From Pseudomonadota bacterium (lineage in GTDB: Bacteria; Pseudomonadota; Alphaproteobacteria; Sphingomonadales; Sphingomonadaceae): a stretch of DNA of 42,452 nt. This document shows, one piece after another, positions 6,887 through 19,136 of this stretch. The stretch spans positions 1-42,452 of the forward strand of contig JAFEEX010000016.1 of NCBI GenBank assembly GCA_018240895.1, given 5' to 3'. Below the pieces are notes generated by a model that was not told where the DNA came from, ran no database searches, and saw only the letters and a list, made by a program, of their open reading frames with translations. A program made the position numbers and the translations under genes. How positions within the stretch are numbered: the first letter of the stretch is position 1; each line of letters begins with the position of its first letter.

Positions 6887-7435
6887 TCAGTCGGCCTTCA
6901 GGTCGCGGAAATAGCGGATGATTTCCAAAACCGGGCGGTCGCCCGCGTTGCGCCAGCCATGCGCGTCGGCGATGGAGTTGATCGGCTTGCCCGCCCGGCC
7001 GATGATCAGCACTTCAGGCGTGCCGGTCATCGCTTCGATCCCGAACTTGCGGATCACATCCTGGTTGCGGCCCTGCCCCTTGGTCGGACGATTCACGTCG
7101 ATGAAGGTGACGGAATAGCGATTGCCGAGATAAGCACGGAAAAAGTCCGAACTAAGCACTGCGGCCAGCGAGGTGCTGTCACTGCACCAGTCCGCGCCGA
7201 ACACCAGAATTGCCAGGCGTCCGCCAACCTTGGCCTCTGCCACTGCGCCTTCCACTTCCGCCGCGGCATTGGCATCGCTGCGGTAATAGTGAGTCAACAC
7301 CGGCGGCGGCACGTGCAGGTCAGGCGGCAATGGTGCCGGGGCAGCCTCCGGCTTGGGCGCATCCGCCGCCAGTACCGGCGCGGCACCGATTGCGGCCAGG
7401 CCCAGCACCAGCACCGCGAAGCGGCCGCGCCTCAT
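6887..7435 (-). CDS. Exported thioredoxin-like protein with CxxS site
   Basis: 182 aa. Signal peptide (1-24, cleavage after LAA), a Pro/Ala-rich linker, then a thioredoxin fold: [14 protein letters not shown], ...[20 protein letters not shown] with the cis-proline at P140. The active-site motif is W83-C84-S85-D86-S87, i.e. C-x-x-S rather than C-x-x-C. It therefore has only the attacking cysteine, as in monothiol or glutathione-linked forms. Its ATG overlaps the cobS stop (ATGA at 7432-7435), so translation is coupled to cobS. Periplasmic location is predicted; the link to CobS is by position only. Confidence 0.8.
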
Positions 7436-8424
7436 CCCTTGCCCACCACGCTTTCGGGCAGATCAGTACCAAACACCCGCTGATAGTATTCGGCCACCAG
7501 CATCCGCTCTGTCTCATCACACTTGTTGAGGAAGCTGAGCCGGAAGGCGAAGCCGGGATCCTTGAAGATCGCGGTGTTCTGCGCCCAGGTGATCACGGTG
7601 CGCGGGCTCATCACCGTGGAAATGTCTCCATTGATGAAGCCCTGGCGGGTCAGGTCAGCCACCTTGACCATGTTGGCAACCAGGTCCGGCGCGGCATCGC
7701 TGACCTTGGCCAGCACGATCTCGCTTTCAACCTGCGCCGGCAGGTAATTGAGCGCGACGACGATGTTCCACCGATCCATCTGCGCCTGATTGATCGCCTG
7801 GGTGCCGTGATAAAGCCCGCTGGTATCGCCCAGCCCCACCGTATTGGCGGTGGCGAACAGGCGGAAGAACGGATTGGGGCGAATCACCCGGTTCTGGTCA
7901 AGCAGGGTCAGCTTGCCTTCGGTTTCCAGCACGCGCTGGATAACGAACATCACGTCGGGCCGGCCGGCGTCATATTCATCAAACACCAGCGCGACCGGAT
8001 GCTGCAAGGCCCAGGGCAGCAGCCCTTCGCGAAATTCGGTGATCTGCAGCCCGTCACGCAGCACGATCGCATCGCGGCCGATCAGGTCAATCCGGCTGAT
8101 GTGCGCGTCAAGGTTGATCCGCGCGCAGGGCCAGTTGAGCCGCGCCGCAACCTGTTCGATATGCGTTGACTTGCCGGTGCCGTGGTATCCCTGAACGATC
8201 ACCCGGCGGTTGAAGGCAAAGCCTGCCAGAATCGCCAGCGTGGTATCGGGATCGAACACATAGGCTTCATCGATGTCGGGGGTGCGCTCATCGGCGATGC
8301 TGAAGGCGGGAACCTTCATGTCGATATCGATGCCAAACACCTCGCGCACGCTGACTTCGCGGTCAGGCGCGGGAAGGACGGTGTTGTTGCGGGTGTCGGT
8401 CTGGACGTCTGGAATCTGGGTCAT
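7432..8424 (-). CDS. cobS: Cobaltochelatase subunit CobS-like AAA+ ATPase
   Basis: 330 aa, matching the ~330 aa of CobS, the AAA+ motor that works with CobT and CobN to insert cobalt in aerobic cobalamin synthesis. Walker [10 protein letters not shown] (79-87), Walker B ALVFDEYD (145-152), sensor-1 ATANT (191-195). Start at 8424 (MTQIPDVQ) is chosen over longer readings because it gives the family N-terminus. No cobT follows within the window; the next gene is the coupled thioredoxin-like protein, and no other cobalamin gene is present. Many alphaproteobacteria keep bolA, dnaJ-like, cobS and cobT together. Here a 6.7-kb block separates dnaJ-like from cobS. Confidence 0.85.
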
Positions 8425-8527: not shown

Positions 8528-9181
8528 ATGATCAAGATTTTCGGGTTCCCGCTTTCACCCTTTGTCCGCAAAGTCCATGTGGTGGCCGCAGAAAAGGGCA
8601 TCGCGGTGGAGATGGTGCTGAACCGCCTGAGCGACCCCTCGCCCGAATTTCTTGTCGCCAGCCCGTTCCGCAAGATCCCCGCGCTGCAGGACGGTGATTT
8701 CAACCTGGCCGATTCGACCGCGATCGTCACCTACCTTGATGCCCTGACACCCACGCCGCCGATCGCGCCGGGCGATGCCCGCCAGCGCGCCAAAGCGATC
8801 TGGTGGGAGGAATTTGCCGACACCATCCTGGTCGCCGCCGGGGGCAAGGTGCTGTTCAACCGTTTCGTCGGCCCCACCTTCCTGGGCATTCCGGGTGACG
8901 AGGCGGTAGCCGGGCAAGGCCTGAAGGAATTCGGCCCGGTGATGGATTACCTTGAAGGCGAATGCGGCCCGGGCTGGCTGGCCGGGGGCGATTTCAGCAT
9001 CGGCGACATCGCGGTTGCAGTAGGCTTGCGGTCAATGGGTTATGTCGGGCTTGAACCCGATCCCGCCACGCACCCCAGGACCGCCGCGTGGTACGAACGG
9101 GTCAAGGCGCGGGCATCGTGGCAGAAAGTCGCCGCGATCGAGGCCAAGGTCATGGACCGCGCGCTTCCACCCAAGGATTGA
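8528..9181 (+). CDS. Glutathione S-transferase family protein (first of three)
   Basis: 217 aa. Thioredoxin-like N-terminal GST domain about 1-78: [24 protein letters not shown], then [27 protein letters not shown] with the cis-Pro and the glutathione gamma-Glu-binding D-S pair. All-helical C-terminal domain contains [18 protein letters not shown], the usual N-capping box. GGGGGAAG lies ahead of the ATG at 8528. It is divergent from cobS, and its end lies 89 bases before the TetR gene. It may have its own promoter, outside the TetR-headed operon. Substrate unknown. Confidence 0.85.
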
Positions 9182-9234: not shown

Positions 9235-9264
9235 TTGACCGACATACCAACCGGTTGGTATGGT
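9235..9264 (+). promoter_or_regulatory. TetR gene promoter with built-in operator
   Basis: TTGACC (9235-9240), an 18-base spacer, and TATGGT (9259-9264) form a promoter. The perfect 20-bp palindrome CATACCAACCGGTTGGTATG (9243-9262) fills the spacer and overlaps the -10. Binding by the TetR protein would block RNA polymerase, giving autorepression and control of the whole downstream run. The expected transcription start is about 9271, the A of the ATG, so the mRNA is probably leaderless. Confidence 0.75.
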
Positions 9265-9270
9265 TTCGTC

Positions 9271-9912
9271 ATGATCCCGAATCGTCCCTTTCGCCAACCC
9301 TCGCAGGGCGCACGCGGCAAGCTGCTGGAAGCGGGGGTGAGGCTGGTGCGCGAACAGGGATTTTCCGCCACCTCGGTTGACCAGCTCTGCGCCGCCGCCG
9401 GAGTGACAAAGGGCGCGTTTTTCCACCACTTCGCCTCAAAGGAGGCGCTGGGCGTCGCGCTGGCGGGCTATTGGTCAGACAGCACCGGGGGCTTTTTCGC
9501 GGAGGCACCTTATCATCACCATGCCCGCGCCCTTGACCGTGTGCTCGGCTATCTCGACCTGCGCATCGCGCTTATCGGCGGCGCGCCGGAACAGTTCAGT
9601 TGCGTTGCGGGAACGATGCTGCAGGAAAGTTTCCGGACCAGCGCGGCCATCCGCCGTGCCTGCGAAACCAGCATCATGAGCAACGCCAGCGCGCTTGAGG
9701 CCGACATTGCCGAGGCACTGGCCGATCACGGTCTGCCCGCTGCCATGGCGCCCGGCCTGGCCCGCCATATCCAGACGGTGATCCAGGGTGCCTTCATCCT
9801 CGCCAAGTCGCAGGAGCCGGACGAATCCGCCGCCATGGCCCGTGAGGCGATCGGCCACCTGCGCCGCTATTTCGAACTGCTGTTCGGCCCAGCAACTCAA
9901 GGAGAAGCGTGA
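9271..9912 (+). CDS. TetR/AcrR-family transcriptional regulator
   Basis: 213 aa. N-terminal helix-turn-helix about 15-60: GKLLEAGVRLVREQGFSATSVDQLCAAAGVTKGAFFHHFASKEAL, the standard TetR DNA-binding domain. The C-terminal ligand domain includes CVAGTMLQESFRTSAAIRRACE. The start is set at ATG 9271 because the 20-bp palindromic operator and promoter end just before it; an earlier in-frame ATG (9226) would lie upstream of that promoter. No Shine-Dalgarno precedes 9271, in keeping with a leaderless message. The stop overlaps the next ATG by one base (TGATG). It most likely represses itself and the 10 genes behind it until a small electrophilic ligand binds; the ligand is unknown. Confidence 0.9.
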   Translation: MIPNRPFRQPSQGARGKLLEAGVRLVREQGFSATSVDQLCAAAGVTKGAFFHHFASKEALGVALAGYWSDSTGGFFAEAPYHHHARALDRVLGYLDLRIALIGGAPEQFSCVAGTMLQESFRTSAAIRRACETSIMSNASALEADIAEALADHGLPAAMAPGLARHIQTVIQGAFILAKSQEPDESAAMAREAIGHLRRYFELLFGPATQGEA

Positions 9913-10313
9913 TGCGGGTAATGGTCATCGTCAAGGCGACGGCGGACAGCGAAGCCGGAATGAAGCCATCCCCGGAAACCACGCGGATGTTCGCGGAGAT
10001 GGGCGCTTTCAATGAACAGCTGGTCAAGGCCGGGATCATGGAAATGGGCGATGGGCTGAAGCCGTCTTCAGCGGGCAAACGGATCGCCTTTGACGGCGCG
10101 AGCCGCACGGTGATCGACGGCCCTTTTGCCCATCCCGATGAGCTGGTGGCTGGCTTCTGGATCTGGAAAGTCCGCGACATGGACGAAGCGGTTGAATGGG
10201 CCAGGCGCTGCCCCAATCCGATGCCCGGGCCAAGCAAGCTTGAAATCCGCCCATTTTATGAAGCCGAAGACCTGGCCGAGGTTTTGAGCGCGGAGCAGGC
10301 TGCAAAGGTGTGA
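9912..10313 (+). CDS. YciI-like (DGPF-motif) protein
   Basis: 133 aa. Belongs to the YCII-related superfamily, small dimeric alpha/beta-barrel proteins of mostly unknown chemistry. MRVMVIVKATADSE, the region around EMGDGLKPSS and the DGPF motif (69-72) are the family marks, followed by GFWIWKVRDMDEAVEWARRCP. AAGGAGA (9898-9904) is a good ribosome site, and the ATG overlaps the TetR stop by one base. A start at GTG 9909 is possible but lacks support. Members are often encoded beside VOC and SRPBCC proteins, as here. Confidence 0.85.
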   Translation: MRVMVIVKATADSEAGMKPSPETTRMFAEMGAFNEQLVKAGIMEMGDGLKPSSAGKRIAFDGASRTVIDGPFAHPDELVAGFWIWKVRDMDEAVEWARRCPNPMPGPSKLEIRPFYEAEDLAEVLSAEQAAKV

Positions 10314-10369
10314 GCCCAGCGCAAACCGAATGAAACAGTCCGTGCAACCGGGCCAAAGGAGAGCCTGCC

Positions 10370-10801
10370 ATGACCAAGATGATCTTCATCAGCCTGCCGG
10401 TGGCCGATCTGCCCAGAGCGATGGCGTTCTACACCGCGCTGGGCTTTGAAAACCAGCCGCGCTTCACTGACGAGACCGCGGCGGCGATGCAATGGAGCGA
10501 GACGATCTTCGTCATGCTGCTGACTCACGCCAAGTGGCAAGGCTTCACCACCCGGCCGATCTGCCCGCCCGGATCAAGCGAGGTATCGCTGGCCCTGACC
10601 TGTGACAGCAAGGCAGAGGTTGACCGGCTGATCGTGGCGGGCGGCGCTGCGGGCGGCACGGTTGACGTCAATCCGCCCGAGGACCACGGCTTCATGTACC
10701 AGCGCAGTGTGGCCGATCCCGATGGCCACATCCTTGAACCGTTCTGGATGGACCCGGTGGTGGCCAGCGGAGACCAGCCGGTTCCGGAAACAGCGTCATG
10801 A
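10370..10801 (+). CDS. VOC-family (glyoxalase/bleomycin-resistance fold) protein
   Basis: 143 aa, one vicinal-oxygen-chelate unit. ISLPVADLPRAMAFYTALGF opens the first beta-alpha-beta module, and DPDGHILEPFW with its metal-ligand Glu closes the second. The fold covers glyoxalase I, extradiol dioxygenases and antibiotic-binding proteins, and the exact reaction cannot be told. AAAGGAG precedes the ATG at 10370. The TGA overlaps the next ATG (ATGA at 10798-10801), so translation is coupled to the DUF1428 gene. Confidence 0.85.
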   Translation: MTKMIFISLPVADLPRAMAFYTALGFENQPRFTDETAAAMQWSETIFVMLLTHAKWQGFTTRPICPPGSSEVSLALTCDSKAEVDRLIVAGGAAGGTVDVNPPEDHGFMYQRSVADPDGHILEPFWMDPVVASGDQPVPETAS

Positions 10802-11169
10802 CTTACATCGACGGTTTCGTGATCGCCTGCCCGCGGGCCAACCGCGAAAAGTTTGTCGATCACGCCGCAACGATTGACGCGATGTTTCTGGAAATGGGCG
10901 CGCTGCGGGTGGTCGAATGCTGGGCCGATGACGTGCCCGATGGCAAGGTCACCGATTTTCGCCGGGCCGTTCGGGCCGCGGATGATGAGGATGTGGCGTT
11001 CAGCTGGATCGAATGGCCCGACAAGGCAACGCGTGATGCGGCCTTTGCCAAAATGATGGACCCGGCCAACACCGACCCACGAATGGACCCGGCCAAAAAC
11101 CCGGTGCCGTTTGATGGCAAGCGCATGATCTTCGGCGGCTTCGTGCCGGTCGTTGATCTGGCAGTATAG
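10798..11169 (+). CDS. DUF1428 family protein (YbaA-like)
   Basis: 123 aa, the usual family length. The marks are YIDGFVIACPRANREKF, ALRVVECWADDVPDGKVTDF and the C-terminal MIFGGFVPVVDL. It has a dimeric alpha/beta-barrel fold, function unknown (E. coli relative YbaA). No signal or membrane segment is present. It starts within the stop of the VOC gene and ends 10 bases before the double-VOC gene, so it is a middle member of the operon. Confidence 0.88.
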   Translation: MTYIDGFVIACPRANREKFVDHAATIDAMFLEMGALRVVECWADDVPDGKVTDFRRAVRAADDEDVAFSWIEWPDKATRDAAFAKMMDPANTDPRMDPAKNPVPFDGKRMIFGGFVPVVDLAV

Positions 11170-11179
11170 GAGAGAGACG

Positions 11180-11965
11180 ATGACAACCCTGCAAGGAAGC
11201 TGGATCTGGTACGAACTGATGACCCCTGATCCCGAGGGGGCCAAGGCGTTCTACGAAGCGGTGGTGGGCTGGTCGATGACCACCGGACACGGCGACAGCA
11301 ACGACTATGGCTTCCTTACCGCGCCTGACGGGGCGATGGTCGGCGGGCTGCTGCGCCTGAATGATGACATGACCAGTCACGGCGCGCGGCCGATCTGGAT
11401 CGGCTATGTCGGGGTCGATGATGTCGATGCCGAACTTAAGGCGATTGAGGCGGCCGGCGGGCGCACCCTGATGCCCGCGACGGACATCGCCATGGCCGGA
11501 CGCGTGGCGATGGTGGCCGATTGCTGCGGCGCGGCGTTCTACGTCATGACGCCAACCCCGCCGCCGGGCGGGGGTGAAAGCACCGCCTTTGCCCCCCGCC
11601 CCAACCCGGGGCATTGCGGCTGGAACGAGCTTTACGCTGGCAACCAGGCCAATGCCGAGCGGTTCTATACCAGCCGGTTCGGCTGGACCCTGCCCGATCC
11701 GATGGACATGGGACCGATGGGCAAATACCAGTTCATCGCCCATGACGGCGTGACGACGGGCGCGATCATGACCAAACCCGAAGCGGCCCCCGCCGCAATG
11801 TGGTGCCACTATTTCTGGGTCGATAGCATCGCCAAGGCCAGGGGCCTGGTCGAGGCGAACGGCGGGCAGATCGTCAATGGTCCGCATCAGGTTCCGGGCG
11901 ACCTGTGGATCATTCAGGGGATAGACCCGCAGGGCGCGCTGTTCAGCCTTGTGGGAGGGGCGTGA
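11180..11965 (+). CDS. Double VOC-domain protein
   Basis: 261 aa with two VOC units in tandem: WIWYELMTPDPEGAKAFYEAVVGW (about 8-125) and CGWNELYAGNQANAERFYTSRFGW (about 145-261). Tandem units let one chain form the two-barrel active site. The layout resembles mycobacterial CFP30B/27-kDa antigen proteins and hydroxylase-type relatives. TAGGAGAGAG sits just before ATG 11180. Its TGA overlaps the GTG of the next gene. Substrate unknown; with three GSTs close by, a glutathione adduct is a reasonable guess. Confidence 0.87.
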   Translation: MTTLQGSWIWYELMTPDPEGAKAFYEAVVGWSMTTGHGDSNDYGFLTAPDGAMVGGLLRLNDDMTSHGARPIWIGYVGVDDVDAELKAIEAAGGRTLMPATDIAMAGRVAMVADCCGAAFYVMTPTPPPGGGESTAFAPRPNPGHCGWNELYAGNQANAERFYTSRFGWTLPDPMDMGPMGKYQFIAHDGVTTGAIMTKPEAAPAAMWCHYFWVDSIAKARGLVEANGGQIVNGPHQVPGDLWIIQGIDPQGALFSLVGGA

Positions 11966-12465
11966 GCTACCACCGGTCATTGCAATGCGCGTGCGGCGCG
12001 GTTGAATGCGTCATCACCGCGCCGCCGATCGGCACGGCGGTCTGTTATTGCGCTGATTGCCAGAAGGCCGCGCGGGAGATCGAGGCAAATGGGCGCGGAC
12101 CAGCGGTGGCAGACGCGGACGGCGGCACCGCGCTGGCGCTGATCCGCAATGATCACCTTGCCTTCATCCAGGGGGAGGAACACGTCGCCGCGCACAAGCT
12201 GCGCGCGGATTCGCCTACAGCGCGGTTTGTGGCGGGCTGTTGCAATTCGGCGCTGTTCATCGACTTTGACGATTGGCGATTCTGGAAATCGACCATGATC
12301 GATCGCTGGACCGGCGACAAACCGGCGATCGAGATGCGCCTTGAACTGCGTGATCGTACCAGCGACCTGCCCTTCCCCGACGATGCGCCGCGCTATCAGA
12401 CCTTTCCCAAGACGTTCCTGATCCGCATCCTCAGGCAATGGGCCGCCTTCAAACTGGCGCATTGA
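11962..12465 (+). CDS. DUF6151 / GFA-like cysteine-rich protein
   Basis: 167 aa from a GTG start that overlaps the preceding stop (GTGA, 11962-11965), with GGGAGGGG just upstream. Cysteines C9-x-C11, C28-Y-C30-x-x-C33 and C93-C94 are arranged as in the GFA/CENP-V fold. That family holds structural zinc and includes proteins proposed to bind glutathione for formaldehyde activation. The family assignment is by cysteine pattern; catalysis is not established. No signal peptide. It is the one zinc-type protein in a run otherwise made of GST, VOC and SRPBCC folds. Confidence 0.75.
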   Translation: MSYHRSLQCACGAVECVITAPPIGTAVCYCADCQKAAREIEANGRGPAVADADGGTALALIRNDHLAFIQGEEHVAAHKLRADSPTARFVAGCCNSALFIDFDDWRFWKSTMIDRWTGDKPAIEMRLELRDRTSDLPFPDDAPRYQTFPKTFLIRILRQWAAFKLAH

Positions 12466-12510
12466 CCATCGCCCGGTTGGGCTTAGGCTCGTCCCGGCAA
12501 GGAGAGACCG

Positions 12511-13137
12511 ATGGCCGAATATACCTTCTTCACCAATCCGATGAGCCGCGGACAGATTGGACGCTGGGCGCTGCACGAAGCCGGGGTCGGCTATGATCAG
12601 GTATTGGTGCCGTGGGCGGAAAAACCCGCCAGCCTGCTTGCGGCCAACCCCATGGGCAAGGTGCCAACGCTGATTCACCACAGCGCCACCGGCAACAAGG
12701 TGGTGACCGAATGCGCCGCGATCTGCGCCTATCTGGCGGAAGCGCACCCAGAGGCGGGGCTTGGCCCATCGGCTGATGAATGCGCGGACTATTATCGCTG
12801 GATGTTCTTTGCCGCCGGGCCGCTTGAAACCGCAGTGGTTACCCGCGCGCTGGGCTGGCAGGTGCCGCCCGACCGCGAGGCGATGGCCGGCTGGGGCAGT
12901 TTTGATCGCACCATCGCCGCGCTGGATGGGCACTTTGAAGGGAACAACTATGTCTGCGGGAACCGCTTCACCATGGCGGACGTTTATGTTGGCAGCCAGG
13001 TGGATTGGGGGCTGACCTTTGGGTCCATTCCGCCCAGCGAAGCCTTTGTGGCCTATGCCGATCGGCTTCAGGCGCGTGCCGCTTACAAGGCCGCGAAGGC
13101 GATCGATAACGCCTTGATAGAGGAAAGCCGGAAATGA
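12511..13137 (+). CDS. Glutathione S-transferase family protein (second of three)
   Basis: 208 aa. The N-terminal domain has YTFFTNPMSRGQIGRWALHEAG, ANPMGKVPTLIH (cis-Pro) and the acidic glutathione-binding turn at VVTECAAICAYLAE. The C-terminal helical domain carries YVCGNRFTMADVYVGSQVDW. AAGGAGAG precedes the ATG. Its stop overlaps the next ATG (13134-13137). A serine is available near the N-terminus (MSRGQ), as in many bacterial beta/nu-like GSTs. Sequence is clearly different from the other two GSTs here, so this is not a recent duplication. Confidence 0.87.
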   Translation: MAEYTFFTNPMSRGQIGRWALHEAGVGYDQVLVPWAEKPASLLAANPMGKVPTLIHHSATGNKVVTECAAICAYLAEAHPEAGLGPSADECADYYRWMFFAAGPLETAVVTRALGWQVPPDREAMAGWGSFDRTIAALDGHFEGNNYVCGNRFTMADVYVGSQVDWGLTFGSIPPSEAFVAYADRLQARAAYKAAKAIDNALIEESRK

Positions 13138-13613
13138 GCGGAGTAACCCTGTGCCTGTGGTATGATCACACTGCGGAAGAAGCCGCGCGGTTCTATGCCG
13201 AGACCTTTCCGGACAGCCGCGTCAGCGCCGTCCACCGCGCCCCGGCGGATAACCCGTCCACCAGCGCGGGTGATGTTCTCACCGTGGAATTCACCGTGCT
13301 GGGGTTGAACTGCATCGGCCTGAACGGCGGCCCCGCCTTCAAACCGAGCGAGGCCTTTTCATTTCAGGTCGCAACAGACACGCAGGAGGAAACCGATCGG
13401 TACTGGAACGCCATAGTCGGCAATGGCGGTGAAGAGAGCGCCTGCGGCTGGTGCCGCGACAAGTGGGGCTTTTCCTGGCAGATCACCCCGTGCGTCCTGA
13501 CCAATGCCATGGCAAAGGGCGGCGAGACCGCGAAGCGCGCCTTTGAAGCGATGATGACCATGCGCAAGATCGACATCGCCGCCATCGAAGCTGCAATCGG
13601 AGAAACCGCATGA
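13134..13613 (+). CDS. PhnB-like VOC protein (3-demethylubiquinone methyltransferase-like fold)
   Basis: 159 aa. VTLCLWYDHTAEEAARFYAETFPDSRV and the later CGWCRDKWGFSWQITP segment are typical of PhnB/YjdN-type VOC proteins, often mislabelled as 3-demethylubiquinone-9 3-methyltransferases. No AdoMet-binding motif is seen, so methyl transfer is unlikely. The gene is coupled by 4-base overlaps to the GST before it and the SRPBCC gene after it. The cell role is unknown. Confidence 0.85.
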   Translation: MSGVTLCLWYDHTAEEAARFYAETFPDSRVSAVHRAPADNPSTSAGDVLTVEFTVLGLNCIGLNGGPAFKPSEAFSFQVATDTQEETDRYWNAIVGNGGEESACGWCRDKWGFSWQITPCVLTNAMAKGGETAKRAFEAMMTMRKIDIAAIEAAIGETA

Positions 13614-14056
13614 CACCGCAATTCACCGTCTGGATCATAGTGTCACGTCCGCCTGCGGCGGTTTTTGAGGCGGTGGCCGATCCGCTGATCCTGTCGCGCT
13701 ATTTCACCACCGGCGGCGCAGCCGGGCGGATGGAAAGCGGCGCGACCGTGGAGTGGGAATTTCATGATTTTCCCGGGCCCTTCCCGGTTCAGGTGATCGA
13801 GGCCGCGTCGCCCGAACGGATTCGCTTCACCTGGCCGCGCAGCGATGGAACCGGGCAGAACGAGGTGACCTTCCGGTTCGATCCGGTTGATGGCGGCAGC
13901 CGGACCAAGGTTTCGGTCAGCGAAAGCGGCTGGCCAGACAGCGATGCTGGCCGCGCCGCCTCTTACGATAATTGTATGGGCTGGTCGCAAATGATCGCCG
14001 CGCTGAAGATGTGGGCCGAACATGGCATCAACCTGCGCGAGAGTGCCTACAAGTGA
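13610..14056 (+). CDS. SRPBCC/AHSA1-family protein (first)
   Basis: 148 aa. START-like ligand-binding fold: VWIIVSRPPAAVFEAVADPLILSRYFT, then VEWEFHDFPGPFPVQVIEA, ERIRFTWP and the long C-terminal helix MGWSQMIAALKMWAEHG. The family binds hydrophobic small molecules; AHSA1-like members in bacteria are mostly uncharacterised. It starts within the PhnB-like stop and ends within the start of the third GST (GTGA). Cytoplasmic, no signal. Confidence 0.82.
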   Translation: MTPQFTVWIIVSRPPAAVFEAVADPLILSRYFTTGGAAGRMESGATVEWEFHDFPGPFPVQVIEAASPERIRFTWPRSDGTGQNEVTFRFDPVDGGSRTKVSVSESGWPDSDAGRAASYDNCMGWSQMIAALKMWAEHGINLRESAYK

Positions 14057-14706
14057 CGCTGGCGCTTTATGGTCACCCCTTCTCATCCTACACCTGGAAG
14101 GCGCTGATCGCGCTCTATGCGAACGGTACGCCGTTTGCGTTTCGCGTGGTTGGTGAAGGTTCGCCCGAACATGACGCATTCGTCGCCAATGCCGGGCCGG
14201 GCGGTAAGTTTCCGGTGCTGCGCGACGGTGATACCACCGTGTTTGAGGCGACATCGATCATCGAATACCTCCACCGCAATCATCCCGGCCCGGCCCCGCT
14301 GATTCCCGCTGACCCTGATGCGGCGATCAGGACGCGGATGTGGGACCGGGTGTTTGACCTGCACATCATGGACCCGATGCAGGAAATCGTGCTCGATCAT
14401 ATCCGTAACCCCGGCAATCCCGATCCGGCGGTGCGCGAACGGATCGAGGCCCGGCTTGACCGCGCTTACCGCTGGATTGAGGCGTGGCTGGAAACCTATC
14501 CGCAGGCTGGGCAGATATCCCTGGTGGAATGCGCCGCGGCGCCCAGCCTGTTCTATGCCGACTGGGTCCACCCGGTCCCCGCGGATTGCCCGCGCCTGCA
14601 GGCCTTCCGCGCACATTTGCTGGCCCTGCCCCCCGTTGCCCGCTGCGTTGAGGAAGCGCGGCCCTATCGTCATTACTTCCCGCTTGGCGCGCCCGACCGG
14701 GATTGA
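14053..14706 (+). CDS. Glutathione S-transferase family protein (third of three)
   Basis: 217 aa from a GTG that overlaps the previous stop (14053-14056). N-terminal domain LALYGHPFSSYTWKALIALYANGTPF with a serine pair, GGKFPVLRDGDTTVFEATSIIEYL with the cis-Pro and the gamma-Glu-binding E-A-T-S turn. The C-terminal domain has AGQISLVECAAAPSLFYADW at the usual capping-box position. The longer reading to ATG 13972 would overlap the SRPBCC gene by 85 bases and adds residues unlike a GST, so GTG is preferred. Confidence 0.85.
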   Translation: MTLALYGHPFSSYTWKALIALYANGTPFAFRVVGEGSPEHDAFVANAGPGGKFPVLRDGDTTVFEATSIIEYLHRNHPGPAPLIPADPDAAIRTRMWDRVFDLHIMDPMQEIVLDHIRNPGNPDPAVRERIEARLDRAYRWIEAWLETYPQAGQISLVECAAAPSLFYADWVHPVPADCPRLQAFRAHLLALPPVARCVEEARPYRHYFPLGAPDRD

Positions 14707-14719
14707 AAGGAACCCCACG

Positions 14720-15157
14720 ATGTATGAACTGTCCGTCACCCGCCTGATCAAGGCCGATCCCGCCAAGGTGTGGGAGGTGATGACCAACCGCACCAACGAA
14801 TGGTGGTGCCCCAAGCCGTGGCGGGCCGAGGTTGATTGGGGATCGCGCACGCCCGGCGGCTATACCAATACCGTGATGTACGGGCCCGATGGCGAAACCA
14901 ACCAACACCCCGGCTTTATCCTGGCCTGGGATGAAGGGCGGCGGATTGCCACGACCGACGCCATCGAGCGTGATCTGCAACCGGGCGGACCGTTCATGCT
15001 GGGCATCTGGGAAATCACGCCCGAAGACGGCGGCACCCGCTATACCGGCCGCGCCCGGCACTGGACGCCCGAAAGCATGGCGCATCACCGGGAAATGGGA
15101 TTTGACGAAGGCTGGGGTGTGATGGCCGATCAGCTCAAGGAACTGTGCGAAGCCTGA
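14720..15157 (+). CDS. SRPBCC/AHSA1-family protein (second)
   Basis: 145 aa. LSVTRLIKADPAKVWEVMTNRTNEWWCPKPW opens the fold and HREMGFDEGWGVMADQLKELCEA forms the C-terminal helix. It is a different subgroup from the SRPBCC protein at 13610, with little identity. GAAAGGAACC is the ribosome site for ATG 14720. It is the last gene of the TetR-headed run. Its stop TGA directly abuts the stop of the convergent dnaJ-like gene (TGATCA, 15155-15160), with no room for a terminator between them. Confidence 0.82.
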   Translation: MYELSVTRLIKADPAKVWEVMTNRTNEWWCPKPWRAEVDWGSRTPGGYTNTVMYGPDGETNQHPGFILAWDEGRRIATTDAIERDLQPGGPFMLGIWEITPEDGGTRYTGRARHWTPESMAHHREMGFDEGWGVMADQLKELCEA

Positions 15158-15745
15158 TCAGCGGAACGCCGCAGCCTTGCGCAGCAATTGATAAGCCTCA
15201 ACCACCTGTTGCAGGCGCTGTTCATGGCTGCGGTCGCCGCCGTTGCGATCAGGGTGATAGCGGCGCACCAGCTGCGAATAGCGGCTGCGCAGCGCCGCCC
15301 GGTCCGCATCGAGCGGCAGGGCCAGCACGTCCAGCGCGCGGCGTTCAGCGGGCGTCATCACCCGGCCGTCACTGCGTTCAGCGGGGCGGCGCGCACGGGC
15401 GCGCTGGCTGATTGCCTCCAGCGGGTCGGGGAAATCCGCCCAGCGCGGCGCCGAATCGATTCCCGCCGTCGGGCTGAAAGCACGCGTCTGGCGGTCCCAG
15501 CCGTGGATCGGCGATTGCGCGCGCAGGATCTCTTCCGCGCTCATCCCTTCGAACCAGTCATACCCGGCATTGAATTCCCGCACATGATCAAGGCAGAACC
15601 AGCGGTAATCGCCCGGCCCGTCAAAACCCGGGCCGCGTCCGCCGGGCGCGCGGAATTCCCCCGGCTGGGTGCAGCCCGGCCATTCGCAGATTTGCTGGCT
15701 TGAAGTAACGCGGCCATGAAAACGATCGTGCTTCACATCTTCCAC
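15158..15745 (-). CDS. DnaJ-like protein with N-terminal zinc-ribbon-like module
   Basis: 195 aa. The J domain is at the C-terminus (about 135-190): ALDVLALPLDADRAALRSRYSQLVRRYHPDRNGGDR with the essential HPD at 164-166. Upstream, C20-x4-C25 ... C51-x2-H54 resembles a small zinc site. This inverted layout is usual for the alphaproteobacterial J protein found beside bolA and cobS. It should stimulate a DnaK ATPase. GTG at 15736 with GGAAG ahead is a rival start, giving MKHDRFHGRV. Divergent from bolA with 29 bases between. Confidence 0.85.
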   Translation of the reverse strand: MEDVKHDRFHGRVTSSQQICEWPGCTQPGEFRAPGGRGPGFDGPGDYRWFCLDHVREFNAGYDWFEGMSAEEILRAQSPIHGWDRQTRAFSPTAGIDSAPRWADFPDPLEAISQRARARRPAERSDGRVMTPAERRALDVLALPLDADRAALRSRYSQLVRRYHPDRNGGDRSHEQRLQQVVEAYQLLRKAAAFR

Positions 15746-15774: not shown

Positions 15775-16047
15775 ATGACAGGAACTCTTGCCGCCGAAAT
15801 CGAACGCCTGCTGAACGCCGCCTTCGCCCCCACCCGCCTTGCCGTGATCAACGACAGCGCCCGCCACCATGGCCATGCCGGCGATGACGGATCGGGCGAA
15901 AGCCATTTTACCGTCGAAATAGAAAGCGCCGCCTTTGCCGGGAAATCCCGGCTGGAACGGCAGCGCATGATCAACCGCGCGCTGGGGGACATTCCCGGCC
16001 AGCGGGTCCATGCACTGGCGATCCGGGCGCAGGCCCCGGGCGAATGA
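15775..16047 (+). CDS. BolA family protein
   Basis: 90 aa. Class II KH-like fold: EIERLLNAAFAPTRLAVINDSARHHGH, ESHFTVEIESAAFAGKSRLERQRMINRALGD, RVHALAIRAQAP. The conserved RHHGH histidines and the FAGKSRLERQRMI helix are as in BolA/IbaG proteins that pair with monothiol glutaredoxins to handle [2Fe-2S] clusters. AAGGAAAG lies ahead of the ATG. Its stop overlaps the Nudix start (16044-16047). Confidence 0.93.
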   Translation: MTGTLAAEIERLLNAAFAPTRLAVINDSARHHGHAGDDGSGESHFTVEIESAAFAGKSRLERQRMINRALGDIPGQRVHALAIRAQAPGE

Positions 16048-16499
16048 CGGTTCTGGACAAACCGCCAAGGATCAGGCGCGCCGCGCGCATCCTGCTGCTT
16101 GATCCGGCGGCCAGGGTATTGCTGTTTCGCTTCACCCCCGATGATCGTCCGCCGCTGTGGGCAACGCCGGGCGGAGAATGCGATGAAGGCGAGGATTTTT
16201 GCGCGGCAGCACGCCGCGAACTGATGGAGGAAACCGGCATCGATTGCGATCCCGGCCCCGCCATAGCCCGCCGGTCAAGCCGGTTTCGCACCTTTGCCGG
16301 AGAGGACGTTGTTGCGGACGAACGCTATTTCTGGGTGAATACCCAGGCCTGTTCGATTGAAACCAGCGGTCACACCGCAACTGAACGGGCAGTAATGAAG
16401 GAACATCGGTGGTTTGCCCTGGCGGAAATAGATAACTGGCATGAACCGATCTATCCTGAAAACCTGGCAGACCTGCTGCGAAAGGGCATGACACCATGA
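16044..16499 (+). CDS. Nudix hydrolase
   Basis: 151 aa. A complete Nudix box GX5EX7REUXEEXGU runs 44-66: G-ECDEG-E, then RELMEETGI. It hydrolyses a nucleoside diphosphate linked to another group; substrate not deducible. IRRAARILLLDPAARVLLFRF and the following LWATPGGE are typical. Coupled by ATGA overlaps to bolA upstream and pirin downstream, so it is the middle gene of a three-gene unit. Confidence 0.92.
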   Translation: MTVLDKPPRIRRAARILLLDPAARVLLFRFTPDDRPPLWATPGGECDEGEDFCAAARRELMEETGIDCDPGPAIARRSSRFRTFAGEDVVADERYFWVNTQACSIETSGHTATERAVMKEHRWFALAEIDNWHEPIYPENLADLLRKGMTP

Positions 16500-17377
16500 C
16501 CATCCTGACCACCATAGAACCCGTCACTCATAATCTTGGAGCGTTTCAGGTCCGCCGGGTGCTGCCATCGCCCCGGCAGGTGATGGTCGGGCCGTTCATC
16601 TTCGTCGATCAGTTCGGCCCGGCAGTGATCCCGCCGGGTCAGGCCATGGATGTGCGCCCGCACCCGCACATCGGCCTGGCCACGGTGACCTGGCTGTTTG
16701 AAGGGGCGATCAACCACCGTGACAGTCTGGGCAATTTTGCCACGATCCGCCCCGGGCAGGTCAACCTGATGACCGCCGGCTCGGGGATCGTCCATTCAGA
16801 ACGCGGCCTGCCCGAAGAGCTTGATCAGCCCAAACCGATGTACGGAATGCAAACCTGGCTGGCCCTGCCCGACGGGCAGGAGGATTGCGCCCCGGCCTTC
16901 GAATCGCTGGCCGGTCTGCCGCTGGTGGAAGATAATTGCGCAACCGCACGGGTGATCATGGGAACCCTGTGGGGCCAGACCGCGGCAACCACCCAGCACG
17001 CCGCGACAATCTATGCCGAAATCGTACTGGCCCCCGGCGGCGCGATCCCGATTGACAGCGATGCGGATGAACGCGCCGTGATGCTGGTGGGCGGAGAGGC
17101 CAGCCTGGATGGTGTGACGCTGGAACCGTACCAACTGGCGGTGCTTGCCCCCGGCGCGACACTGCGCCTTTCCTCGCAAACCGGCGGACGGGTGATGCTG
17201 ATGGGCGGTGAGGCATTTCGCACACCGCGTCATGTCTGGTGGAATTTCGTGGGATCATCGCGGGACCGGATCAATCAGGCCAAGCATGATTGGGAAGATG
17301 GCCGCTTCCCCAAGGTGCCGGGTGACGAGGAGGAATTCATTCCCCTTCCGCAAACGCCATTGACCCGCAGCGAATAG
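16496..17377 (+). CDS. Pirin family protein
   Basis: 293 aa, full length. Bicupin fold with metal ligands at H56, H58, H100 and E102 (RPHPHIGLATVTWLFEG and GSGIVHSERG). Bacterial pirins have been tied to quercetin dioxygenase activity and to regulation of pyruvate metabolism; which applies cannot be said. The C-terminal GRVMLMGGEAFRTPRHVWWNFVGSSRDRI is a strong family mark. Starts within the Nudix stop and ends 23 bases before the SDR gene. Confidence 0.93.
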   Translation: MTILTTIEPVTHNLGAFQVRRVLPSPRQVMVGPFIFVDQFGPAVIPPGQAMDVRPHPHIGLATVTWLFEGAINHRDSLGNFATIRPGQVNLMTAGSGIVHSERGLPEELDQPKPMYGMQTWLALPDGQEDCAPAFESLAGLPLVEDNCATARVIMGTLWGQTAATTQHAATIYAEIVLAPGGAIPIDSDADERAVMLVGGEASLDGVTLEPYQLAVLAPGATLRLSSQTGGRVMLMGGEAFRTPRHVWWNFVGSSRDRINQAKHDWEDGRFPKVPGDEEEFIPLPQTPLTRSE

Positions 17378-17400
17378 AACGATTTTCAAGGGAGGATAAC

Positions 17401-18240
17401 ATGGGATTTTCCGGACAAGCCGCGTGGATAACCGGGGCATCATCGGGGATTGGCGCTGCGCTGGCGCGGGCGCTGGCCGCAGACGGGGCCAGGCTGGTCC
17501 TGTCTGGTCGCAATGTCGCCGCGCTGGAAGCCGTGGCTACGCAATGCGGCGGCGACCACCTGATCCTGCCGTTTGAAACCACTGACATCGCCGCGATCCA
17601 GCCGGCGGTTGACAAGGCCTGGGCATGGTCAGGTGGGACGGAGTCTGGCGGGATAGATCTGCTGGTCAACAACGCCGGCATTTCCCAGCGTTCGCTGGCG
17701 GTTGATACCGCCTATGCCGTCTATGACCGGATCATCGCGGTTGATCTGCTGGCTCCGATCGCGCTGACCCAGGCGCTGCTGCCGCACATGGCGGCGCGGG
17801 GCAGCGGGCGGATCGCGATGATCAGCTCGGTCGCGGGCAAGGTCGGGGTGCCGATGCGCACCGCCTATTGCGCGGCGAAGTTCGGGATCGCCGGTTATGC
17901 CGACGCCTTGCGGGCAGAAGTCGCCCATCTTGGGCTTCAGGTTCACACCATCTATCCCGGCTCAGTCCGCACCGAAGTTTCGCGCAATGCCCTTACCGCC
18001 GATGGATCGACCCGCGGCGCTTCCGACAAGGCGATCGACAACGGGATCGATCCCGATCTGGCGGTCCGGACCATGATCGACGCCATGCTGGCGGGGCAGC
18101 GTGAAATCATCGTTGCCGTGGGCGTGGAACAGCAAATGGGTGAGGCCCGCCGCACCCCCGATGCCCTGCTCGATCAGATCGGCGCTTTCATGGCCGCCGG
18201 CTATGCCGAGTGGATGAAGGCGGAAGGAACCGAATCATGA
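17401..18240 (+). CDS. Short-chain dehydrogenase/reductase (SDR)
   Basis: 279 aa. Cofactor motif TGASSGIG (11-18), NNAG (90-93), catalytic serine in ISS (142-143) and YCAAK with Y156 and K160: all SDR residues are present. Classical SDR, NAD(P)-dependent, working on an unknown alcohol or ketone. GGGAGG precedes the ATG. The C-terminal ~40 residues (GVEQQMGEARRTPDALLDQIGAFMAAGYAEW) resemble lipid-droplet/DHRS7-type SDRs. Its stop overlaps the ATG of the hydrolase (18237-18240). Confidence 0.92.
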   Translation: MGFSGQAAWITGASSGIGAALARALAADGARLVLSGRNVAALEAVATQCGGDHLILPFETTDIAAIQPAVDKAWAWSGGTESGGIDLLVNNAGISQRSLAVDTAYAVYDRIIAVDLLAPIALTQALLPHMAARGSGRIAMISSVAGKVGVPMRTAYCAAKFGIAGYADALRAEVAHLGLQVHTIYPGSVRTEVSRNALTADGSTRGASDKAIDNGIDPDLAVRTMIDAMLAGQREIIVAVGVEQQMGEARRTPDALLDQIGAFMAAGYAEWMKAEGTES

Positions 18241-19136
18241 AGCGGGTCACCCTGGCCAGCGGGATTGAACTTGACGTGGTTGACGATGGACCGCGCGATG
18301 CCCCGGCGCTGATTTTTCTGCATGGCTTTCCGGAAAGTCACCGCACCTGGCGTCACCAGATCGCTCACCTGTCAGACCGTTATCGCTGCATCGCCGCCGA
18401 TCAGCGCGGCTATCGCGGATCATCCAAACCGCAAGAGGTTGAAGCCTATACCCCGGACAAGCTGATCGGCGACGTGTTCCAGCTTGCCGATGCGCTGGGG
18501 GTGGAACGTTTCACTGTGATTGGCCACGATTGGGGCGGTGCAATCGCCTGGGGCGTGGCCCTGATGGGGCAGATGAACGGACGGGTGCCGCGCGCGGTAA
18601 TCGCCAATGCCCCTCACCCGGCGGCATTTGGGCGACTGGTGTGGGAGAACCGGCATCAGCGCGAATCGAGCCAATATATGCGTACCTTTCGCGATTCCGC
18701 CAACGATACACTGGTGCGCGAACACGGCCTTGCCGGGATGCTGATGAAGGCGTTTGAAGGCCGTTTCGAAACCGAGGACAAGATGGAGCCGGAGGAACGC
18801 GCCGCGCTGCTGACGGACTGGGGAAACCGCGAGGCCGCCTTTGGAATGCTCAACTGGTATCGCGCCAGCCCGCTTTATGTGCCGGCGTTGGATGAACCTT
18901 ACGCAATGCCGGCTGACAAGGCCCCACCGCCAATCCCCGCGCTGACCATCCCTGCCCTGGTGATCTGGGCGCTGGATGATCTGGCCCTGCCCCCTGAAAA
19001 CCTTGACGGGCTGGAGGAAATGGTGACCGACATGACCCTGGTGCGCGTGCCCGATTGCGGCCATTTCGTGCCGTGGGAAGCCCCCAATATCGTCAACGCA
19101 GCTATGGATGTGTTTCTTGACCGAACCGAATCGTAA
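18237..19136 (+). CDS. Alpha/beta hydrolase, epoxide hydrolase-like
   Basis: 299 aa. Oxyanion motif HGFPES (29-34). The nucleophile elbow GHDWGG has an aspartate (D98) where lipases have serine, which marks the epoxide hydrolase / haloalkane and haloacetate dehalogenase branch. NWYRAS in the cap domain could supply an epoxide-ring tyrosine. DDLALPPENL is the acid region and CGHFVPWEAP holds the catalytic His. Epoxide hydrolysis is favoured over dehalogenation, but untested. Coupled to the SDR by ATGA. Confidence 0.88.
   Translation: MKRVTLASGIELDVVDDGPRDAPALIFLHGFPESHRTWRHQIAHLSDRYRCIAADQRGYRGSSKPQEVEAYTPDKLIGDVFQLADALGVERFTVIGHDWGGAIAWGVALMGQMNGRVPRAVIANAPHPAAFGRLVWENRHQRESSQYMRTFRDSANDTLVREHGLAGMLMKAFEGRFETEDKMEPEERAALLTDWGNREAAFGMLNWYRASPLYVPALDEPYAMPADKAPPPIPALTIPALVIWALDDLALPPENLDGLEEMVTDMTLVRVPDCGHFVPWEAPNIVNAAMDVFLDRTES

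Follow-up and report, generated by a model that had tools for sequence, protein, structure and literature searches.

The closest described counterparts of the operon analysed here are the thiol-stress operons nemRA-gloA of Escherichia coli, alt of Pantoea ananatis and arqI-gloA2 of Pseudomonas aeruginosa and, in regulatory layout, acuR-acuI-dddL of Rhodobacter sphaeroides and the PaaR-controlled phenylacetate genes of Burkholderia cenocepacia. The operon itself comprises eleven plus-strand genes in a 42,452-nucleotide stretch of DNA (the window) from a bacterium of the Sphingomonadaceae (GenBank assembly GCA_018240895.1, contig JAFEEX010000016.1), on contig 12 of a 3.17-Mb assembly of 104 contigs that is 89% complete. 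Among the matches listed, the named organisms closest to it in the double-VOC gene belong to Novosphingobium, with 75% identity in the best segment. By Pfam family the gene order is TetR, YciI, VOC1, DUF1428, VOC2, DUF6151, GST7, PhnB, SRP9, GST10, SRP11, in which GST stands for glutathione S-transferase-like and SRP for SRPBCC proteins. Our best reading, by analogy, is that this operon would work like the three thiol-stress operons, with a gene set that is undescribed.

In nemRA-gloA, as in the window, a TetR repressor comes first, carries a cysteine at the NemR Cys106 position and has a glyoxalase-fold enzyme under its control behind it, and an inverted-repeat operator lies inside the regulator's own promoter. 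Whereas the E. coli operon includes a NemA-type flavin reductase, no such Pfam family occurs among the window's eleven proteins, which instead include GSTs, DUF1428, PhnB and SRPBCC members; NemR Cys21 and Cys116 are not conserved. The alt (allicin tolerance) cluster, set beside the window operon by description rather than by sequence, is likewise a multi-gene thiol-stress cluster with a NemR-like TetR protein, AltR, whose conserved Cys100 is required for the thiosulfinate response according to the available part of the report (PMC13178969). Its inverted repeat IR2 (half-site TTACCAAC/GTTGGTAA) has TACCAAC/GTTGGTA in common with the window operator, but is spaced by N6 rather than N2 and, in that same part, is not proven as the AltR site. 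In arqI-gloA2 an alpha+beta-barrel protein adjoins a VOC/glyoxalase protein, as here, although that operon has two genes, ArqI belongs to the ABM family and not to DUF1428, and the accessible portion of the paper leaves the transcription factor unidentified.

The acuR-acuI-dddL operon is headed by its own TetR repressor, its operator overlaps the promoter and its transcript is leaderless, as shown by rapid amplification of cDNA ends in the portion of the study available (PMC3017554) and as would hold for the window. The acuR operator given there, TAATAGAC-N6-GTCTATTA, differs from that of the window, whose operon is without AcuI or DddL and whose TetR scores far below the AcuR cut-off. In the PaaR-controlled genes, the -10 and -35 boxes enclose an inverted repeat, ACCGACCGGTCGGT, that conforms to the operator consensus ACCRACYRGTYGGT applied to the present loci; those genes serve phenylacetate catabolism, PaaR binding is a hypothesis in the accessible text (PMC2770484), and the likeness is one of operators, not of PaaR sequence.

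Conserved order of the gene cluster in Sphingomonadales

From the window alone, an initial annotation had described eleven plus-strand genes behind one promoter, with overlaps at six of ten junctions. This description was borne out: the gaps from TetR to the last SRPBCC gene are -1, 56, -4, 10, -4, 45, -4, -4, -4 and 13 bases, so that all six overlaps are of 1 or 4 bases, and Pfam confirmed the families it had named. The cluster was then compared across 60 loci from the family (five with DUF1428 only and 55 drawn, mainly by higher score, from the 71 further genomes that carry VOC2) and 80 named loci (the best 80 of 577 confirmed), making 141 with the window. VOC2 could be called in 135, and removal of five near-identical loci left 130 non-redundant loci, window included. 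Because loci were picked by score, their frequencies lean to close relatives; some end at contig borders, and genes were called by a codon-score script. Across 149 genomes of the family, DUF1428 was found in 106, VOC2 in 72 and DUF6151 in 4. All window-protein matches in the 60 family regions lie on the VOC2 (or DUF1428) strand, except for the upstream GST gene, GST0, in one of nine regions.

Gene order is almost invariant in the 130 loci: VOC1, GST, DUF1428, double VOC, PhnB, (RibD), GST, SRPBCC. In runs holding both genes of a pair, VOC1 lies upstream of VOC2 in 60/60 and DUF1428 in 96/97, VOC2 precedes PhnB in 87/91, PhnB precedes GST10 in 59/59 and GST10 precedes SRP11 in 37/38; the position of GST7 is less fixed (ahead of PhnB in 33/43). 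Chance or local assembly of the operon was rejected on this conservation. The outcome named beforehand as refuting the initial annotation, single scattered homologues without a common order, did not occur, since the set recurs in the same order. The slot between cobS and a J-domain gene that the window cluster fills is occupied by 56 of the 130 loci (36/62 with a divergent HxlR regulator, 13/27 with TetR and 7/41 others), and since both borders are present in only part of the loci, many clusters keep their gene order outside it.

The exact eleven genes do not form a conserved unit, however, and the proposal that they constitute one pathway is not supported: YciI occurs in 3/130 runs, DUF6151 in 6/130 and SRP9, the first SRPBCC gene, in 1/130, the window. 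Being rare, these three are not to be placed at the centre of the mechanism. The DUF6151/GFA protein is an unlikely core step. Its gene lies downstream of VOC2 in 3/6 runs. The protein matches PF04828 (GFA) above cut-off (33.5 bits over 24.3), over only 30/115 positions. Seven cysteines are invariant in an alignment of four DUF6151 proteins. Further in-run counts are 49 for another GST (GSTx9), 28 for TetR, 27 for RibD_C, 9 for DoxX and 8 for mpaB, and 56/130 runs also contain unlabelled genes. The reported lack of an oxidoreductase thus stands for the window operon but not for related runs, given their RibD_C reductase-like and mpaB-type oxygenase genes, while the lack of a transporter stands for the families of all eleven proteins. 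One locus (L202) carries an enlarged cluster with DUF4287, DUF6958, DUF899, an extra VOC (all by Pfam) and a hydrolase-like protein (by eye) among the core genes, and L179 has unlabelled genes of lengths similar to these extras.

DUF1428 and VOC2 are direct neighbours 89 times in the 130 loci, and in six (L067, L075, L160, L175, L185, L197) DUF1428 is fused to the double VOC in one frame of about 380 residues; because fused genes were scored as VOC2 only, DUF1428 is slightly undercounted. The sole Pfam match of the DUF1428 protein at E <= 0.001 is PF07237, the ABM (ArqI) family not being matched. DUF1428 is repeated in some loci, with two or three successive copies, and two DUF1428 domains are tandem-fused in one gene at L079 (9322-10044) and in other loci of open reading frame cluster 27. 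Outside Sphingomonadales only pieces of the cluster were seen. A unit of TetR, VOC2 and PhnB under an operator of the same type occurs in a Caulobacteraceae locus (L182, exact operator core) and a Myxococcales locus (L201, variant core), perhaps acquired by transfer.

Operators, exchanged regulators and conserved cysteines

The palindrome ATACCAACCGGTTGGTAT fills most of the -35/-10 spacer of the likely promoter and overlaps the first bases of TATGGT, and the TetR ATG lies nine bases downstream of it. The operon had been said to begin at 9235, which proves to be the first base of the likely -35 box TTGACC; the TetR gene itself starts at ATG 9271. By eye, the 25 TetR-type loci with the operator (window included) have TTG at the -35 place in 23 cases and TATG closing the operator on its right in 21. 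As a start about seven bases past the -10 box would coincide with the ATG, the window transcript is probably leaderless, starting at the TetR ATG without a ribosome-binding site, and self-repressed.

The TetR control that had been supposed was strengthened by a dedicated operator, whose core is found in 25/27 TetR loci, 0/62 HxlR loci and 5/41 others, five that may hold TetR genes below cut-off. The core lies 8-14 bases ahead of the TetR start in 15 of the 25 loci, touches the ATG in five and is further off in five, which may be miscalled starts. Scanning the window's own genome (89% complete, 104 contigs) revealed a single site at <=2 mismatches, against 0 in the reversed control, so that a TetR regulon of many sites was rejected.

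By our cut-offs, a divergent HxlR gene is present at 62 of the 130 loci, a codirectional TetR gene at the operon head in 27, both in 0 and neither in 41. The HxlR loci have an operator of their own: GTTNC-N5-GNAAC occurs in 38/62 divergent regions as compared to 12/1240 random stretches, in 21 of those 38 as two copies exactly 21 base pairs apart, and within 3 kb in only 1/27 TetR loci. The regulator was likely exchanged more than once; a quick single-gene VOC2 tree, made without a shuffle control and with tree error inflating the count, gives a minimum of 16 HxlR/TetR state changes.

Both regulators carry a conserved cysteine. In TetR, Cys111 is invariant in 12/12 sequences (window included) and Cys131 is present in 11/12; at 22% overall identity to NemR, Cys111 of the window protein aligns with NemR Cys106. 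Given this invariance and alignment, a thiol-reactive inducer appears plausible from sequence; thiol oxidants and alkylating electrophiles are both candidates. The HxlR cysteine is present in 28/28 rows that reach its column, twelve residues ahead of LGER, paralleling Cys11 ahead of IGGK23 in the HxlR described in the available part of PMC7835342. Sensing of formaldehyde through a Cys-Lys bridge in HxlR was rejected, as the lysine is absent in the rows seen. For the electrophile or aldehyde sensing originally proposed, a thiol-reactive inducer acting through Cys111 is plausible.

Features and surroundings of the window operon

The operon and GST0 lie between the minus-strand cobS and J-domain genes (Table 1). 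GST0 had been counted as a third GST just ahead of the operon; it is indeed there, but stops 89 bases short of TetR, with the operator lying downstream of it. DUF6151 and GST10 start with GTG (11962 and 14053). The stop codons of SRP11 (15157) and of the convergent J-domain gene (15158) meet with zero bases between. A second tight plus-strand run follows downstream (16044-19136), with NUDIX, pirin and then, by eye, SDR and alpha/beta hydrolase genes, and some relatives, too, have a pirin gene after the J-domain gene. In L066 (6452-8608), L071 and L180, a gene of 718-729 residues immediately precedes TetR within the run; by eye, its product in L066 resembles a TonB-dependent receptor, a possible link to uptake.

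Table 1 Coordinates of the operon, its control region and its borders in the window.
Feature	Position	Strand	Evidence or occurrence
Promoter: TTGACC 9235-9240, 18-base spacer, TATGGT 9259-9264	9235..9264	+	sequence
TetR operator, perfect palindrome ATACCAACCGGTTGGTAT	9244..9261	.	sequence, genome site scan, relatives' loci
TetR-family regulator, invariant Cys111	9271..9912	+	PF00440 + PF21993
YciI/DGPF protein, rare member	9912..10313	+	PF03795; 3/130 runs
VOC1, single glyoxalase-fold protein, core	10370..10801	+	60/130 runs
DUF1428, alpha+beta barrel fold, core	10798..11169	+	PF07237; 97/130 runs
VOC2, double glyoxalase-fold protein, core; anchor for choosing loci	11180..11965	+	
DUF6151/GFA-like, seven conserved Cys, rare member	11962..12465	+	PF19648, PF04828; 6/130 runs
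GST7, glutathione S-transferase-like	12511..13137	+	50/130 runs
PhnB-like (3-dmu-9_3-mt) protein, core	13134..13613	+	PF06983; 91/130 runs
SRP9, AHSA1-type SRPBCC, seen only in window operon	13610..14056	+	PF08327; 1/130 runs
GST10, glutathione S-transferase-like, core	14053..14706	+	63/130 runs
SRP11, AHSA1-type SRPBCC, core	14720..15157	+	PF08327; 57/130 runs
GST0, upstream GST, outside TetR operator by position	8528..9181	+	6/130 runs
CobS-like AAA ATPase, left slot border, not operon member	7432..8424	-	PF12556
J-domain protein, right slot border, not operon member	15158..15745	-	PF00226

Proposed function and competing explanations

We hold with moderate confidence that the operon represses itself and is induced to detoxify thiol-reactive compounds, either electrophiles or oxidants of thiols, or the adducts that these form with glutathione. 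By their families, the proteins most likely use glutathione-linked chemistry to remove reactive carbonyls, quinones or similar thiol-reactive compounds, with dicarbonyls, quinones and enals as candidate electrophiles. Computation establishes the gene set and its order, the operators, the exchange of regulators, the conserved cysteines, the fusion and the folds; from these we infer the following course. Without stress, a TetR dimer on the palindrome between -35 and -10 would block the leaderless transcript, and modification of Cys111 by a thiol-reactive compound would lift repression. The GSTs may then conjugate the compound with glutathione or isomerise it, DUF1428 and VOC2 would form one working unit and, alongside VOC1 and PhnB, process intermediates of carbonyl or thiol-adduct type, and the SRPBCC proteins may bind hydrophobic intermediates. 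YciI, DUF6151 and an additional SRPBCC protein are rare members carried by this genome; a RibD-like reductase, mpaB, DUF1801 or DUF4287 occur elsewhere. In many relatives the divergent HxlR with its own conserved cysteine would assume the role of regulator.

Several observations weigh against such a thiol-stress operon. TetR proteins with C-terminal domains like those of LmrA and YxaF, the type that Pfam assigns to the window TetR, can bind ligands non-covalently. A cysteine at the Cys111 column also occurs in two uncharacterised TetR structures, 3qbm and 3knw, so that its conservation alone does not prove a sensor; it may reflect subfamily inheritance. The columns of NemR Cys21 and Cys116 hold Val and Phe in the window TetR. 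According to the part of PMC3739934 available, Cys106 suffices for the bleach (HOCl) response of NemR, whereas a separate study ascribed the critical role for electrophiles to Cys21 and Cys116; with both replaced, oxidants may be a better fit than alkylating electrophiles. In HxlR, the formaldehyde-partner Lys13 is absent: of 14 rows shown, 11 extend to position +2, and all of these have Thr or Met there. By our cut-offs, 41/130 loci have neither regulator. The fold similarity of DUF1428 to ArqI is common to many barrel proteins, and ArqI itself conferred no measurable resistance in the accessible portion of its report. Lastly, among 240 genomes drawn from the class, DUF1428 (E <= 1e-20) was found in 39 of other families and VOC2 (E <= 1e-40) in 5, the two lying close together in only 2 genomes of one genus.

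The likeliest alternative, although we consider it unlikely, is an auxiliary catabolic operon that would help to degrade a specific aromatic, lignin-derived or enoate (e.g. acrylate) compound, whose intermediate or coenzyme A ester TetR would sense non-covalently. The VOC, GST and YciI folds include aromatic-pathway enzymes, which counts in its favour, as does the leaderless, operator-in-promoter layout resembling acuR-acuI-dddL. The operator core also matches the inverted repeat needed for paaA repression, which likewise lies between -10 and -35 in the available text of PMC2770484, a further point against the thiol-stress reading. AcuR and CurR are the best NCBIfam matches of TetR, but both fall far below cut-off (49.4 bits against 247 for AcuR model NF051457), and none of the eleven operon proteins belongs by Pfam to a family of oxygenases, coenzyme A ligases, dehydrogenases or transporters. 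None of the ten proteins scanned against NCBIfam (all but SRP11) reaches a curated cut-off; for zeta GST (maleylacetoacetate isomerase, TIGR01262, cut-off 171 bits), GST7 and GST10 score 36 and 38 bits.

Resistance to a toxic natural product, which VOC and SRPBCC proteins would bind or inactivate in the style of bleomycin resistance while TetR or HxlR senses it, seems improbable. VOC1 and VOC2 do match PF00903 and Ble-like_N, VOC2 has a relative in Rv0577 and a match below cut-off to KbpA, and the LmrA/YxaF-like domain of TetR would suit such a role; yet the several GSTs that many runs contain indicate glutathione chemistry, and Pfam places no efflux pump among the eleven proteins. We regard as just as improbable a co-regulated assortment of small, mutually independent stress proteins, lacking a common pathway and kept in order by descent and shared control only. 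Frequent content turnover (17 to 36 changes per gene on the VOC2 tree), variable accessory genes and the many members without known function would fit it, but the order persists as genes are gained and lost and is also kept away from the cobS/J-domain slot, DUF1428 and VOC2 are fused, and the same gene set stands under two regulators. An extracytoplasmic-function sigma/DGPF system was rejected, as the literature, in the part of PMC6180224 available, gave only a YCII gene listed beside rpoE10, and no sigma-factor family occurs among the proteins scanned.

More tentatively, and at the doubtful end of what we propose for the detoxification operon, the cluster could encode a glutathione-dependent pathway, as yet undescribed, that deals with a single class of reactive carbonyls or quinones across Sphingomonadales, in which DUF1428 and the double VOC form one enzyme, PhnB-like and SRPBCC proteins are true catalysts or carriers, and control has repeatedly been swapped between two unrelated cysteine-sensing repressors. 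No description of the gene set, the DUF1428-VOC2 unit or the repressor exchange was found in the open literature by title or abstract start, which is weak evidence, subscription papers being outside its scope; DUF1428 is almost absent by name from the open literature searched, appearing in 3 of 5.39 million papers. With HxlR and TetR exchanged over one gene set, these loci offer a natural experiment on whether two unrelated regulators respond to one and the same chemical, and the conserved operon, the fusion and the dedicated operator bring the function of DUF1428 within reach of a short bench project. If true, such a pathway would give DUF1428 (E. coli YbaA) and the PhnB-like protein their first function.

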